Assembly (NCBI GenBank): GCA_025463925.1
Contig: JAODBK010000073.1
Coordinates: 1-64,000, forward strand
DNA: 64,000 nt
Direction of reading: 5' to 3'
Source of the DNA: Acidimicrobiales bacterium
Lineage (GTDB): Bacteria > Actinomycetota > Acidimicrobiia > Acidimicrobiales > AC-14
In this document: piece by piece, positions 58,213-63,813 of the stretch
How positions within the stretch are numbered: position 1 is the stretch's first letter
Layout of the letters: every line of letters begins with the position of its first letter
Translations under genes and position numbers: made by a program
Notes under the pieces: model-generated
The model's input: the letters and a program-made list of their open reading frames with translations, nothing else
What the model was told of the DNA's origin: nothing
The model's database searches: none

Positions 58213-59637
58213 CTACCCCCGCACGCCGAAGCGCGCCATGCGCGCCGCGGCGCCGGGGGCCGCAACCTCGAGGGCGTCGACGAGGTCGCGCGGCCGGGCG
58301 ATCCGGTACGCGTCGACGGCGACGTACCGCGCCAACGCGCAGTCGACGATGTCGGGTGACGCCACCGCGGCCAGCGCCTGGACCCCCTGCACGTACACGC
58401 CGTCGTAGTACGACGAACGATGCGAGTCCCAGAAGGTCATGGGATCGGCGACGTGCCCGCGCGCATCCGCGGGGATGGCCCGGCTCACGAACGACGCGAG
58501 CGTGTTCTCGGCCCGGGCTTCCGCCCATGACGCCAACCCTTCGTCGAGCCATGGATCGCGACCCTGGTCGTTGCCGACCAGCGCGTAGAACCACTGGTGG
58601 CCGAGCTCGTGGCTGGTCGTCCGGCCGAGCGTTCCGGGCCCTTGCATCACGTGGCCCGGGTACTCGATGCCACCATGCAGCGCGGCAGTGACGGCCATCG
58701 TGAACGCGGGCCACGGGTACGCGCCGAAGCGGGCGCTGTGAGCGGCGATCACCCGCACGATCTTGTCGACGTACGGTTGCGGAGACTCGTCGACGTCGGC
58801 GGCCACACCGACGGTGACCGGCACCGGCTGGGGTCCAAGCGCCACGCCGGTGGCGATCCGGAAGTGGCCCACCGAGATCGCGATGTCGCGCATGCCGGTG
58901 GCGACGAAGTGCCCGGGACGCGCCGGGTCGGCGGCACCGCTGGCGAGCACGGTGTACCCGGGCGGCACCGCGACGGCGAAGTCGATGTCGGCGGCCGGTG
59001 CGGTCGACGACTCCGCGTACGCGGTGGTCGGCGGATCCATCGCCCAACCGACACCCGGCTCCCACGGCAGGATCGGGAAGAACGAGCCGAGCCGGATGCC
59101 GTCGCCGGCGTGGGCGACGCGGTCGTCGACCGGGCGGGCCAGGTGGAGGCGCCAGGTCATCGAGACGTGCATCGCGTGCCTGGCGGCGGCCGAGTGGCCG
59201 AGCGGCACGACGATGGTGGTCGGGTTCGCGCGGGTCGGCACCGCGGGAGCACCGTCGACCTTCACGTCGGCCACCTGCAGGTCGGCGCCGAAGGGCGCGG
59301 TGCGCGGCCCGTTGGGCCACAGCCGGAAGACGAGGTGGTCGACCGGGAGGTCCGGCGTGAACACCACCGACTGGTCGCCGGTCACGGTGTCGTCCGGCGG
59401 CGAGATGTTCACGTGCATCGTGTAGCGCGGCCGGTCGGCGGGCGGGGACGCGGGCGGTGGGACCGGGCAGCCCGCCGGCGGGACCACACTCGCCGGCGCG
59501 GTCGTCGGTGCGGACGGCGTCACGACGATCGACGGTGATGTCGACGCCGGGACCGAGGAGCGCTCCAGCGCCTTCGGCGGGCTCGACGACGCGCAGGCCG
59601 CGGCGACGACAAAGAGAAGGATGGGAGAGTGGCGCAC
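58213..59637 (-). CDS. M1-family metallopeptidase lipoprotein
   Basis: A 474-residue zinc peptidase read from GTG 59637. The first 20 residues form a lipoprotein signal peptide with lipobox VAAAC. A Pro/Ser/Thr-rich linker of about 45 residues precedes an aminopeptidase N-like beta domain and the catalytic domain. HELGH at 343-347 and E366 (WLDEG) form HExxH-x18-E. The usual GxMEN motif is changed to GGIEYPG. It should trim peptides outside the membrane. A start at ATG 59661 is also possible, because both strands carry the same ATG-containing inverted repeat here. Confidence 0.82.
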   Translation of the reverse strand: MRHSPILLFVVAAACASSSPPKALERSSVPASTSPSIVVTPSAPTTAPASVVPPAGCPVPPPASPPADRPRYTMHVNISPPDDTVTGDQSVVFTPDLPVDHLVFRLWPNGPRTAPFGADLQVADVKVDGAPAVPTRANPTTIVVPLGHSAAARHAMHVSMTWRLHLARPVDDRVAHAGDGIRLGSFFPILPWEPGVGWAMDPPTTAYAESSTAPAADIDFAVAVPPGYTVLASGAADPARPGHFVATGMRDIAISVGHFRIATGVALGPQPVPVTVGVAADVDESPQPYVDKIVRVIAAHSARFGAYPWPAFTMAVTAALHGGIEYPGHVMQGPGTLGRTTSHELGHQWFYALVGNDQGRDPWLDEGLASWAEARAENTLASFVSRAIPADARGHVADPMTFWDSHRSSYYDGVYVQGVQALAAVASPDIVDCALARYVAVDAYRIARPRDLVDALEVAAPGAAARMARFGVRG

Positions 59638-59664
59638 CGTGAGCGTGCCCAACTCTCCCATCCT
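59618..59664. promoter_or_regulatory. 13-base perfect inverted repeat spanning two divergent starts
   Basis: AGGATGGGAGAGT (59618-59630) and its exact inverted copy at 59652-59664 flank a 21-base spacer containing both divergent GTG start codons (59637 minus, 59639 plus). Each arm also contains an ATG in the frame of its own gene. The pair could be a shared operator, or each arm could supply the real start. Confidence 0.55.
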
Positions 59665-60124
59665 CACCGCGACGTGCGTATGGCGGTGCCGGCCCGACGT
59701 GGTCGTCGCCCTCGACGAGCAGTTCGGCGAGCCGGTCGACGCGTACGTGAACGGCTCGCAGGTCTGGCTGCGCGACGACGGGCCCGGCGGCGTCGCGCTG
59801 GAGTGGCGGCTGCACCCGGTGGCCGGCTTCCACCGCCCGGCCGGCACCGACACGCACGAGCTGTTCGCGACGACGGCCCATGCCATCGCGACCGGCGCCG
59901 AGCCACCGGCGCCGCTGGACGCGCTGTGGGACGGGCTCGAGGCCTTCACCGCGTACGGCGACGAAGTCGAACCGGCAACGCTGGCGGCCGCGGCGGCCGG
60001 GGCCCTCGGCATCCCGCCCGACGCCGCCGGCCTGGTCGACCACCAGCGCATCGGCGACGAGTGGGAACACGCGGGCGGGAAGGTGTCGATCGTCCACCAG
60101 CTCCTCCAGCAGCTGGAGGCCTGA
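59639..60124 (+). CDS. Uncharacterised 161-residue protein
   Basis: From GTG 59639 (ATG 59621 is in frame and may be the real start). The protein is acidic and has a two-part look: a beta-rich N-terminal half (TATCVWRCRPDVVVALDEQF, VDAYVNGSQVWLRDDGPGG) and a helical C-terminal half ending in VSIVHQLLQQLEA. There is no signal peptide, membrane segment or known motif. It is divergent from the M1 peptidase by one base between start codons and converges on the phosphoesterase-MprF fusion with a three-base gap. Confidence 0.55.
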   Translation: MSVPNSPILTATCVWRCRPDVVVALDEQFGEPVDAYVNGSQVWLRDDGPGGVALEWRLHPVAGFHRPAGTDTHELFATTAHAIATGAEPPAPLDALWDGLEAFTAYGDEVEPATLAAAAAGALGIPPDAAGLVDHQRIGDEWEHAGGKVSIVHQLLQQLEA

Positions 60125-60127
60125 CCG

Positions 60128-63118
60128 TTACTTCTCGGAAGAGCTCGGGACGAAGAAGCGGCCGATCAGCGGCAGCTCCCAGAACGATTCGGCGCGGGCG
60201 ACCGCCATCGCGGAGGCGAGGAGGTGCTCGGGCGAGTCGTACACCGCATACCGCGGCCGCCAGTCCGGGTCGTACTTCGCGTTGAAGTACCAGAGCGACT
60301 CGATCTGCATCGACTCGCTCATCTTCTGGAGGAGCCACCGCTCCACCCGCTGCGTCATCGAGTCGCCGGACTCGCCGGCCAGCACGGCGCGCATGGTTGC
60401 GAAGTTGAGGGCCAGGCCCCGGCAGCCGCGCTGGCGCAGGTGGTTGATCGTCTCCACGACGACGAAGTCGGTCACGCCATTGGGGATCGCGTCGGCGTCG
60501 CAGCTGCCGTCGTCGGCATCGCCGTCGTCGGCCCGGCGCATCAGGTCGAGCGAGTAACCCTCGATGTCGGCCGCCGGCACGTATTGGCAGAACGCCGCCG
60601 GCTCTCCGCCCGGACCGAACGCCACCGCCAGGAGGAGGCCCTTGTCGTCGGGATGGAAGACGCGGCCCAGCGTCATCGAAAAGCCGCGCTCCACGTCGCC
60701 CTTCCGGCTCTTGCCCATGAGCGCGGTCAGCTGCGACTCGAGGCCGGCCGGAAGGTTGGCCGGGTCGTGGAAGGCGATGGTGTAGCCGCGCTTGGCGACG
60801 CGGTTCACCGCCTGGCGGAGCCCCTTGGCCCGACCACCCTCCAGCGAGAAACGCGTGATGTCGACGACCGCCTCGTCGCCGACGTAGAGGTCGTGCATGC
60901 CCGCGGCCCGGTAGATCGGGAGCCACGACTCGCTCGCGCCCATGACCGCGATCGGCCACGCGTGCTCGTCAGCGAAGCGCCGGAAGGCGTTCCACACCTC
61001 GGTCCGTTCGGCTTCCGGCCCGATCGGGTCGGGCGAGACCAGTGCGATCCCACCGACGACCGCGTACGCGACCACGCTGGCACCGGAGAAGAAGTAGCTC
61101 TTGTCGTCGCGCAGCGCGAAGTACGCCAGCGTGTCGCCTCCGAAGCGCGCGACGACGTCGCGCGCCCGGGCCCGGTCGTCGTGGCCCTGGTGGCGGTGGA
61201 CGACGACCGGCCGGAACACGATCCAACCGGCGGCCAGGACGAGGCCGACGGACAGCGCCACGAGGACCGGCGCCATCAGGCCGTCGACCCGGCCCGGCAC
61301 GTTGTACACGCTCGACCCGACCATGCGTGAGAGCACGTCGAGCACGGCGCGACCGATTGGCGGCCGCGGCTGGTCACGATGCACCAGCTCGACCGCGGCG
61401 GTCGCGCTGATGACCGCGACCGCGGCGCCCGCGACCAGCGTGACGAGGCCGCGGACCACCGCCGGCGGGTCGGTACGGGCGCGGAAGGCGCGACGGTTCA
61501 ACCAGAGATACCCGACGATGGCCAGCGTGCCCAGCGAGTCCTCGACGTCGACGCCCTTCAGCAGATGCAGCCCCGCCGACCCCACGAGCAGGCCCATGGC
61601 GAGCTGCCACGCGTGGCGCTGGCCACCACGGACCCCGCGGGCCAGCACCAGCAGCGCGAGCCCGGCGAGGGCGACGAGCGCGGCCGCCGTCTGGGCGGTG
61701 GTGAGCGGGACCGCGTCCTTCGCGACCTCGGACCAGCTGCGGAACGGCGGGCTGACGGCGGACGTGATGTTCACGATGCCGGCGAGCGCGATCGCGCCGG
61801 CCGCGATCCGCCGGGCCCGCTTGATCTTCCGCATCGGCGGGACGACCTCGGGCCACGACGGGCCCTGCGGGAACGCGGCCACGACGGCCGGCCGCGGTTC
61901 GGCGCGGAGCGGCTGGGCGGCGAGCCGCTCGACGCGCGTACCGCCCGGCAGATCGCCGGCGGCGTGGATGAGGCGCGCGTGCAAGTCGGCGCCGGCCTCC
62001 ATCTCGACCCATGAGATCTGCCGCTGCGGCAGGTACACCGGCGGCAGACCGAGCCGCGCCGAACGCTCCCGGACGTGGTCGGACGACGAACCGGCGTTGG
62101 CGTAGAACGCGTCGCCCATCACCGTGAGCTCCGGCTGATGGGTGTGGCCGGTGACCAGCGCGGCGTAGCCGCGCGGCACGAGGGCGCGGGCGGCGGCGCG
62201 GGCCGCCTCGTTGCCACGCTGCCGGCGCGAGGCGAACCCCATGTCGGCGGCCGCGGCCCACACCCGCCGGGCCGCGAACACCAGGCCGGCGGCGACGATG
62301 AGGACGTCGGCCACCACCGCCAGGCTGATCAGCGCGGTGCGCCGGGCCAGCCAGGCGGCGTCGCGCTGACCGCCGCGGTCGATGAGCGCATACACCAGCG
62401 GGACCTTCAGGAGGACTGCGAGCGCGAGCGGCACCAGCAGCCACCACACGTGCCGGGCCAACCGCCGGTAGGTCGTGCGAGAGGCGACGAACTCCGGGTA
62501 TGCGACCGGGTCGTCGAGATCGGTGACGCCATCCAGCCAGGCCCGGCCGTCGGCGGCAAGGGCCGGCGCGATCTCGGTGACCACGTGCTGGCCGAACGGC
62601 GTGTCGTTCGGATTGCGCGGGTCGGCGAAGGAGTTGTGCGGGTCGTACTGGTGACCGTGTTCCACGCGCACGCGCCGCTCGCCCCGCCCGGTCTCGATGA
62701 CGATGTCGAGCGCGAACGCCACCTCGGCGCCGAGGCACTTGCGGAGCTTCGTGACCTGCCGCTCGTCCCATCCGAGACGGCTGTCGTGCGTCCCCGGCAG
62801 CACGACCAGGCGGTGGTCGGCCTCCCCGCTGAAGGTGGTGAGCGCCGCCTTCAGCCGCGGGTGCGCCGACAGGATGATCTCGACGTCGAGGTTCGGGCCG
62901 GCGAGCAAGTCGAACACGTCTCCGGCGAGCACGACCAGGCCGGGCCCCACCCAACCCTCGATGGCCCGGGCCACCTCGGACGACGTTGCCGTCGACCCGG
63001 CCGTCGCCGACGGCCCGAGATGCATGTCGCTGGCCACCAGCACCTTGCCCCCGGCGGGGACTGCGACCTCCACCTGGTCCGGCACGAGCACGTCGACCGG
63101 TGCGTCCACCGGCCCCAT
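60128..63118 (-). CDS. Metallophosphoesterase - transmembrane - MprF-like fusion
   Basis: A 996-residue membrane protein from ATG 63118. Residues 25-375 hold a calcineurin-like phosphoesterase with every metal motif: SDMHLG (D31, H33), GDVFD (D67), GTHD (H111), EHGHQYD and GHTH (H325, H327). Two transmembrane helices (about 223-247 and 262-283) are inserted within it. Residues 430-640 carry several more helices. Residues 650-996 match the MprF/LPG synthetase domain (DUF2156: VVARFGGDTLAYFAL, YFFS, VSPDPIG, LWYFNAKYDPDWRPRYAVY), which transfers amino acids from tRNA to phosphatidylglycerol. The pair suggests lipid remodelling at the membrane. Confidence 0.85.
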   Translation of the reverse strand: MGPVDAPVDVLVPDQVEVAVPAGGKVLVASDMHLGPSATAGSTATSSEVARAIEGWVGPGLVVLAGDVFDLLAGPNLDVEIILSAHPRLKAALTTFSGEADHRLVVLPGTHDSRLGWDERQVTKLRKCLGAEVAFALDIVIETGRGERRVRVEHGHQYDPHNSFADPRNPNDTPFGQHVVTEIAPALAADGRAWLDGVTDLDDPVAYPEFVASRTTYRRLARHVWWLLVPLALAVLLKVPLVYALIDRGGQRDAAWLARRTALISLAVVADVLIVAAGLVFAARRVWAAAADMGFASRRQRGNEAARAAARALVPRGYAALVTGHTHQPELTVMGDAFYANAGSSSDHVRERSARLGLPPVYLPQRQISWVEMEAGADLHARLIHAAGDLPGGTRVERLAAQPLRAEPRPAVVAAFPQGPSWPEVVPPMRKIKRARRIAAGAIALAGIVNITSAVSPPFRSWSEVAKDAVPLTTAQTAAALVALAGLALLVLARGVRGGQRHAWQLAMGLLVGSAGLHLLKGVDVEDSLGTLAIVGYLWLNRRAFRARTDPPAVVRGLVTLVAGAAVAVISATAAVELVHRDQPRPPIGRAVLDVLSRMVGSSVYNVPGRVDGLMAPVLVALSVGLVLAAGWIVFRPVVVHRHQGHDDRARARDVVARFGGDTLAYFALRDDKSYFFSGASVVAYAVVGGIALVSPDPIGPEAERTEVWNAFRRFADEHAWPIAVMGASESWLPIYRAAGMHDLYVGDEAVVDITRFSLEGGRAKGLRQAVNRVAKRGYTIAFHDPANLPAGLESQLTALMGKSRKGDVERGFSMTLGRVFHPDDKGLLLAVAFGPGGEPAAFCQYVPAADIEGYSLDLMRRADDGDADDGSCDADAIPNGVTDFVVVETINHLRQRGCRGLALNFATMRAVLAGESGDSMTQRVERWLLQKMSESMQIESLWYFNAKYDPDWRPRYAVYDSPEHLLASAMAVARAESFWELPLIGRFFVPSSSEK

Positions 63119-63126
63119 TGTCGCGG

Positions 63127-63813
63127 CTATTGGCCGGCCTCGTCGCGCCACACCGGCCCGCGGGGCGGGTCGAACACCACGTCCACCGGCTCACCCCGGA
63201 GCGCCTTGAACGCGGCCACGCCCCACCGCTCGATGCCCGCCAGCGGCTCGGGCAGCGCGTCCTCGGCGAACCAGCCGACGTCGGCACACTCGAGCGGGTG
63301 GGCCCGGAGCGAGCCGCCGACGGCGCGGCAGTGGAACACGATCGAGTACAGCGGTGTGCGGGTGAAGCCGAGCCGGAGCCCGTCGAGCACCGCGAGGATG
63401 CGGACCGGCTCGGCCAGGATGCCCGTCTCCTCCTCCACCTCCTTCACCGCGACCTCCGACGGCGAGTAACCGACGTCGGCCCACCCCGTCGGGTAGAGCC
63501 ACACGCCGGAGTCCGCCCGCTGCACCAACAGCACCTCGCCGCGGTCGTTGCCCACGACCGCGCCGACGGCGACCTTGGGCGTGACGTACCCGGCGACGCC
63601 CTCGCCAACCGCAGCGAGCCAGTCGTCGAAGATCGCTTCCGCCTCGGCCTCGTGCCCGGCGGCGACGCGGATGTCGGCCGCGACCTTCAGCACCTCCTCG
63701 AATCGCTCCCGCTCGTACAAGCTCTGCGTGAAACCCAGGCCGGTGCGCGCGATCCCGGCGAGCGACTCGCCCCACCGGAGCAGGTCCCGGGCGGAGACGG
63801 GGTGCGGGTCCAC
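63127..63813 (-). CDS. NUDIX hydrolase with NUDIX-N domain
   Basis: A 228-residue protein starting at GTG 63813. Residues 1-65 are the helical N-terminal domain found in a subgroup of pyrophosphatases (ARDLLRWGESLAGIARTG). The Nudix box reads GWADVGYSPSEVAVKEVEEE then TG: the first Glu of the consensus is Tyr and the Arg is Lys, while the metal-binding EEE is kept. It likely hydrolyses a nucleoside diphosphate-linked compound. It lies eight bases upstream of the phosphoesterase-MprF gene on the same strand. Confidence 0.85.
   Translation of the reverse strand: MDPHPVSARDLLRWGESLAGIARTGLGFTQSLYERERFEEVLKVAADIRVAAGHEAEAEAIFDDWLAAVGEGVAGYVTPKVAVGAVVGNDRGEVLLVQRADSGVWLYPTGWADVGYSPSEVAVKEVEEETGILAEPVRILAVLDGLRLGFTRTPLYSIVFHCRAVGGSLRAHPLECADVGWFAEDALPEPLAGIERWGVAAFKALRGEPVDVVFDPPRGPVWRDEAGQ

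Follow-up and report, generated by a model that had tools for sequence, protein, structure and literature searches.

The minus strand of the window (the whole 64,000-nucleotide stretch of Acidimicrobiales DNA analysed here) encodes, at 60128..63118 with the stop codon included, a 996-residue protein that joins a metallophosphoesterase (MPE) to a predicted aminoacyl-tRNA:lipid transferase of the DUF2156 family. This fusion is genuine and spread over Actinomycetota. As its best explanation, an ancestral bifunctional enzyme is proposed, tentatively and at slightly under even likelihood, in which the MPE would have released diacylglycerol (DAG) from phospholipid for aminoacylation and would later, repeatedly, have become non-catalytic or been deleted. 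The window copy represents an intermediate stage, with an intact synthase half and an MPE that keeps seven of eight scored active-site positions.

The open reading frame begins with ATG, contains no internal stop and shows end-to-end homology with approximately 100 loci. An alternative GTG start lies 11 codons upstream; the ATG is preferred because the GTG would overlap the adjacent NUDIX gene and because homology begins at about residue 12. The fusion recurs over many families in the set of 41 relatives and 247 class genomes examined, which confirms the spread over Acidimicrobiia that the earlier note had proposed to survey, and a scan of GTDB contigs retained 80 loci, nearly all of full length. 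Isolate genomes, from Dactylosporangium siamense and two Micromonospora, and one Streptosporangiaceae MAG are among the sources of these loci. An assembly error or frameshift that joined two genes, a danger of which the earlier note had warned, is refuted and has practically no probability left, as the same fusion is carried by about 100 separately assembled loci, isolate genomes among them. No description of the MPE-synthase layout was found in the open-licence papers searched, a literature outside which most subscription journals lie, and no plasmid record covered 80% of the full fusion protein used as query.

An AlphaFold2 model of the window protein was built from 36 family members, with pLDDT values mostly of 94–98 in the MPE core and of approximately 90 over most of the synthase domain. 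All features described here lie on the minus strand. The first part of the MPE domain (residues 14–204; 62507..63079; pLDDT 84–98) is recognized by Pfam Metallophos at residues 25–170 (23.0 bits, cut-off 21.5), has the LpxH fold and contains the motifs DMH (31–33), GDVFD (66–70), GTHD (109–112) and HGHQYD (154–159). Codon 110 (62789..62791) is ACG and places a threonine where the metal-ligand asparagine of GNHD is expected, the equivalent of LpxH Asn79 by motif (PMC5016852). The domain is then interrupted by a transmembrane hairpin (residues 205–293; 62240..62506), which is indicated by conservation, by its insertion at the point of the LpxH helical insertion domain and by two long model helices (204–248 and 254–293, with pLDDT 54–77 in the weaker blocks), and which opens with a conserved SRxxYR motif (213–218). 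The second part of the MPE (residues 303–423; 61850..62212), with GHTH at 324–327, is supported by the model and by Pfam Metallophos_2 at residues 303–348 (28.0 bits, cut-off 27). It is followed by a LysX/MprF-type membrane region of about six transmembrane helices (residues 429–645; 61184..61834), which matches Pfam tRNA-synt_2_TM, the LysX membrane region, at residues 434–581, is helical in the model and aligns with the MprF cryo-EM chains from residue 428. The C-terminal LPG_synthase_C/DUF2156 domain (residues 655–960; 60239..61156) covers positions 3–298 of the 298-position Pfam model with an E value of 1e-66. Pfam and AlphaFold2 thus agree with the earlier note that a single polypeptide joins a split phosphoesterase, a multi-helix region and a DUF2156/MprF domain; its description of the phosphoesterase as complete holds for seven of the eight active-site positions and fails at GNHD, which reads GTHD.

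In the synthase half, residues 638–978 superpose in VIA-align on A-PGS and L-PGS with a Z score of 29 and an rmsd of 2.8–2.9, and the MprF fold assigned to residues 650–996 in the earlier note is thereby upheld. For the C-terminal 560 residues, LysX is the best curated model (288 bits), and MprF scores 225 bits. The LysX match lies below the NCBIfam equivalog cut-off of 742 bits, ends at model position 575 of 1102 and lacks LysRS, and the MprF match lies below the cut-off of 600 bits, begins at model position 322 of 841 and lacks the N-terminal flippase helices. The DUF2156/LPG synthase domain is present at full length with its double-GNAT fold, and none of the 55 residues that are invariant in fused and unfused relatives is altered in the window. 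The fusion protein belongs to the DUF2156 synthase family and is neither a LysX nor an MprF. It shares with LysX and AlaDAGS (PMC10580965) the six-helix membrane region and the DUF2156/GNAT transferase, whereas LysX ends in a LysRS and has no MPE and the fusion starts with a hairpin-bearing MPE and has no LysRS; apart from the missing LysRS domain, LysX is a closer match than the earlier note had stated. MprF, L-PGS and A-PGS (7duw, 7f47, 4v34, 4v36) share the transferase fold and part of the membrane region, but the fusion has the MPE in place of the flippase helices of MprF. Fungal AspRS-DUF2156 fusions (PMC2922099) likewise join a DUF2156 transferase to a second domain, which is a tRNA synthetase in those proteins and a phosphoesterase in the present one. 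LysX of Corynebacterium and of two Mycobacterium species, and also AlaDAGS, aminoacylate DAG rather than phosphatidylglycerol (PG) (PMC10580965), a point missed in the earlier note, which named PG. Judged solely from this relation to LysX and AlaDAGS, the acceptor of the fusion synthase is most likely DAG.

The MPE half belongs to the MPE superfamily by Pfam scores above cut-off and by fold. With residues 25–390 of the window protein, LpxH (UDP-2,3-diacylglucosamine hydrolase) was the best VIA-align match (Z up to 17.8), followed by YfcE (14.8) and VPS29 (14.3). The metal ligands of LpxH are Asp8, His10, Asp41, Asn79, His114, His195 and His197 (PMC5016852), the same set as in intact members of the fusion family. 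The hairpin sits between the equivalents of His114 and His195, where LpxH carries the insertion that holds lipid X (PMC5016852); this insertion is a four-helix domain in LpxH, whereas it is a transmembrane hairpin in the fusion. The Z score of 17.8 is based on a predicted structure. The sequence relation to LpxH is weak: the best PDB profile match has an E value of 0.009, and two relatives scored 14.6–16.6 bits against an NCBIfam LpxH cut-off of 134. When a stand-alone MPE was used as sequence query against the PDB, nothing meaningful was returned, and Rv0805 and YfcE appear as weak matches of the MPE. Lipid A synthesis is not known from actinomycetes. LpxH, and PlcP as described below, serve as models of possible action and not as families in which the fusion MPE should be filed.

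The MPE active site is eroded in most relatives, a feature that the earlier note had overlooked. Eight positions were scored in the numbering of the window protein (P0001), namely D31, H33, D67, N110, H111, H154, H325 and H327, of which H111 is the additional GNHD histidine and the other seven correspond to the LpxH metal ligands (PMC5016852). Among 102 aligned full-length members, all eight positions are kept in seven (L003 and L110, the latter from Dactylosporangium siamense, are of this type), seven positions in two (the window copy, which is L001, and L098) and at most two positions in 78. In the window, six of the seven metal ligands are present, and the replacement of Asn110 by threonine possibly weakens the MPE, whose catalytic activity should be considered putative on sequence grounds. 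At matched transferase identity (approximately 57%), MPE residues 14–205 are 44% identical in intact members and 29% identical in ligand-poor members. The residues still conserved in the latter (G66, R214, Y217, R218, G343, P359, E397 and P417) look structural. In L083, which keeps none of the eight positions, the AlphaFold2 model has an MPE core mostly of pLDDT 85–95 and a Z score of 17.9 to LpxH, indicating that at least one member without the metal ligands retains the predicted fold. Its fold matches also include the B-subunit of DNA polymerase epsilon, an inactive MPE fold. On a synthase-half tree rooted on unfused synthases, lineages with an intact MPE branch near the base, and loss-only counting gives about seven separate ligand losses, one of which founds an 84-member clade. 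This number is approximate, as the tree was a quick one (LG+G4, SH-aLRT) that drew long-branch warnings and gave the root and several deep nodes little support. Well-supported sister pairs also differ in their active sites, with eight positions kept in L115 and six in L120, and with seven in L098 and three in L050. Two fusion relatives (L010 and L013) lack the hairpin, and three loci (L011, L012 and L039) encode the synthase and show no MPE upstream, where the available sequence extends for only about 0.9 kb in L011.

Loss is also seen in the opposite direction. In L126 and L127, all eight MPE positions are kept, and the synthase is changed at 13 and 16, respectively, of the 55 otherwise invariant residues; this damage perhaps represents a single event in one family. 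L158 comes from a single-contig genome without any synthase match; its MPE is intact and of the fusion type, has no synthase half near it and falls within the fused clade on the MPE tree. L152 similarly has an MPE without a nearby synthase half, but the tree gave it no clear position. Together with the lineages that lost the MPE, these four loci show that either half can outlive the other, and the role of an intact MPE without a synthase half is not tied to aminoacylation alone.

Two other families of the phylum have stand-alone MPEs, approximately 450 residues long, that share the hairpin and keep the motifs intact, and no synthase gene was found alongside them at the loci examined. In one of these families, 39 genomes were searched for the hairpin-MPE and for MGDG_synth, the MGDG-synthase family of DAG glycosyltransferases, and MGDG_synth was found within about 0.4 kb of six MPE copies in five genomes of three genera (G353, G382, G363 twice, G509 and G554). 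The two genes are arranged in tandem or divergently, and both MPE copies of G363 are paired in this way; in G373, both genes lie at contig ends. Because each of these genomes contains only one to three MGDG_synth copies, adjacency by chance is unlikely (roughly estimated at <0.2% per copy), and the adjacency is limited to a minority of the stand-alone MPE copies in this one family. At locus L148, a PAP2 gene and a GDPD gene are located nearby. A precedent for such a linkage is PlcP, an Mn-dependent MPE that converts PG or PE into DAG and whose gene often shares an operon with that of a DAG glycosyltransferase (PMC8231724, PMC4796936). The PlcP-GTcp/Agt pair resembles the fusion, by the published description of PlcP, in linking a DAG-yielding MPE to a DAG-using transferase, but consists of two separate proteins and adds a sugar, whereas the fusion would add an amino acid.

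Based on these comparisons, the fusion protein would be a membrane enzyme with two modules facing the cytoplasm. Both domains are presumably cytoplasmic because the tRNA is located there and because arginines flank the hairpin. The C-terminal half would resemble LysX and AlaDAGS as a tRNA-dependent aminoacyl-lipid synthase, and aminoacyl-tRNA would be drawn from the cytosol, since LysRS is absent. The N-terminal half is related to the stand-alone LpxH-like MPEs, with the transmembrane hairpin replacing the lipid-holding insertion of LpxH. At the cytoplasmic face of the membrane, the ancestral MPE could have released DAG by hydrolysing a phospholipid, acting as a PA phosphatase or as a PlcP-like phospholipase C, and the fusion would place this acceptor beside the transferase, joining acceptor supply to acceptor use. 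The first suggestion of the earlier note, that the lipid acceptor could come from the phosphoesterase, thus gains support by inference from the LpxH fold, the hairpin site, the use of DAG by LysX and AlaDAGS, the MGDG_synth adjacency and the PlcP precedent. The coupling would not be obligatory, as most descendants appear to have lost the metal site with retention of the fold or to have deleted the MPE, and in a few lineages the synthase half would have decayed or disappeared while the MPE remained intact. PAP2 proteins were found in 13 of the 13 genomes tested and are another likely source of DAG, so that the MPE could decay; DAG supply by the MPE is accordingly not obviously needed. Conversely, an intact MPE could persist without the synthase because DAG has other users. 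A more specific version, which we consider rather doubtful, is single-chain lipid remodelling, in which the head-group phosphate would be removed from a phospholipid and an amino acid put on the resulting DAG to give a phosphorus-free aminoacyl lipid, the first activity being dead in most descendants with the fold kept.

An alternative to the DAG-supplying ancestor is that in all fusion proteins, that of the window included, the MPE now serves structure or regulation as a pseudo-phosphatase, like the B-subunits of DNA polymerases, and that the synthase alone works. The retention of at most two active-site positions by 78 of 102 members with continued conservation of structural residues, the persistence of the predicted fold in a member with none of the eight positions and the GTHD of the window itself are all consistent with this reading; however, seven members have a complete site and the window nearly so, loci with a damaged or missing synthase half have an intact MPE, and the absence of the hairpin or of the whole MPE from some relatives argues against an essential scaffold, so that we consider it possible but unlikely. 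A role of the MPE in making PG, as a phosphatase for phosphatidylglycerophosphate (PGP), with the fused synthase producing aminoacyl-PG, would suit the membrane-facing LpxH-like fold and the use of PG by MprF-type enzymes. PgpA is absent from 13 of 13 genomes, an observation that is uninformative by itself because PgpA is also absent in the Corynebacterium control. The nearest characterised actinobacterial relatives use DAG (PMC10580965), every genome tested encodes PAP2 proteins, and most relatives have lost the MPE site even though all of them presumably need PG, which makes this role improbable.

It is similarly improbable, and the least favoured of the roles considered for the MPE, that its substrate is a nucleotide, a cyclic nucleotide or another soluble phosphate, that it regulates the synthase and that the lipid link is incidental. 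Many MPEs, among them the weak matches Rv0805 and YfcE, use such substrates, and the haloarchaeal relatives lack a clear lipid context, but the closest fold is that of LpxH, the hairpin occupies the site of its lipid-binding insertion, and stand-alone homologues are linked to MGDG_synth. These haloarchaeal relatives are stand-alone MPEs on plasmids (L175–L178) that resemble the hairpin MPE along most of its length; their surroundings look related to stress or transport, and no clear lipid gene was found directly beside them in the four contexts read. Haloarchaea use archaeol rather than DAG, and these relatives count also against a DAG-yielding MPE. Reversal of the aminoacylation by the phosphoesterase, also suggested in the earlier note, was rejected on chemical grounds, as the aminoacyl linkage is a carboxylic ester and a phosphoesterase cannot reverse it. 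Lysyl-PG hydrolase activity is reported for AcvB and VirJ (PMC13135905).

If the DAG-supplying reading holds, the fusion suggests a possible source of the DAG acceptor of aminoacyl-DAG synthases and would tie aminoacylated lipids to the pairing of an MPE with a DAG transferase by which lipid remodelling saves phosphate. In addition, the family offers a series for the study of domain inactivation, comprising intact sites, single-ligand loss, full loss with the fold retained, hairpin deletion and domain deletion. Intact versions are present in cultured Micromonosporaceae, and their activity is therefore directly testable.

In the window, a NUDIX hydrolase gene with an N-terminal Nudix_N domain (63127-63813) lies on the minus strand, as does the fusion, and ends 8 bases upstream of the fusion start; this spacing suggests co-transcription. 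The earlier note had suggested that the two could belong to the same system, a view that the other loci do not bear out: a tblastn search with the window NUDIX against fusion loci L003–L122 gave nothing below an E value of 0.8, with a positive control in the window's own loci, and NUDIX is not among the recurrent neighbours of fusion loci. The flanks covered only about 1.5 kb for loci up to L042, some of them at contig ends, where absence carries little weight, and up to 8 kb for L043–L122. In many of the latter loci, haem-synthesis-like genes and an lnt-like gene are located upstream and nuo (NADH-dehydrogenase-like) genes are convergent downstream, names that were mostly read from sequence; the neighbourhood in the window is unlike this recurrent arrangement. 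A gene for a HAD_PNKP-type phosphatase is found divergently just upstream of many fusions (e.g., L121:7295-7798). It is present at 26 of 46 loci that keep zero to two MPE positions, 5 of 13 that keep three to six and 0 of 6 that keep seven or eight, counts that are uncontrolled for phylogeny, and the association may be a marker of one clade only. The same genome as the window contains a second, shorter DUF2156-like reading frame of 346 residues (L002, G000:C96:17536-18165) with 30% identity to the synthase domain. In the window, the reading frame at 58213-60051 contains HELGH and a downstream glutamate motif and looks like an M1-type metallopeptidase.
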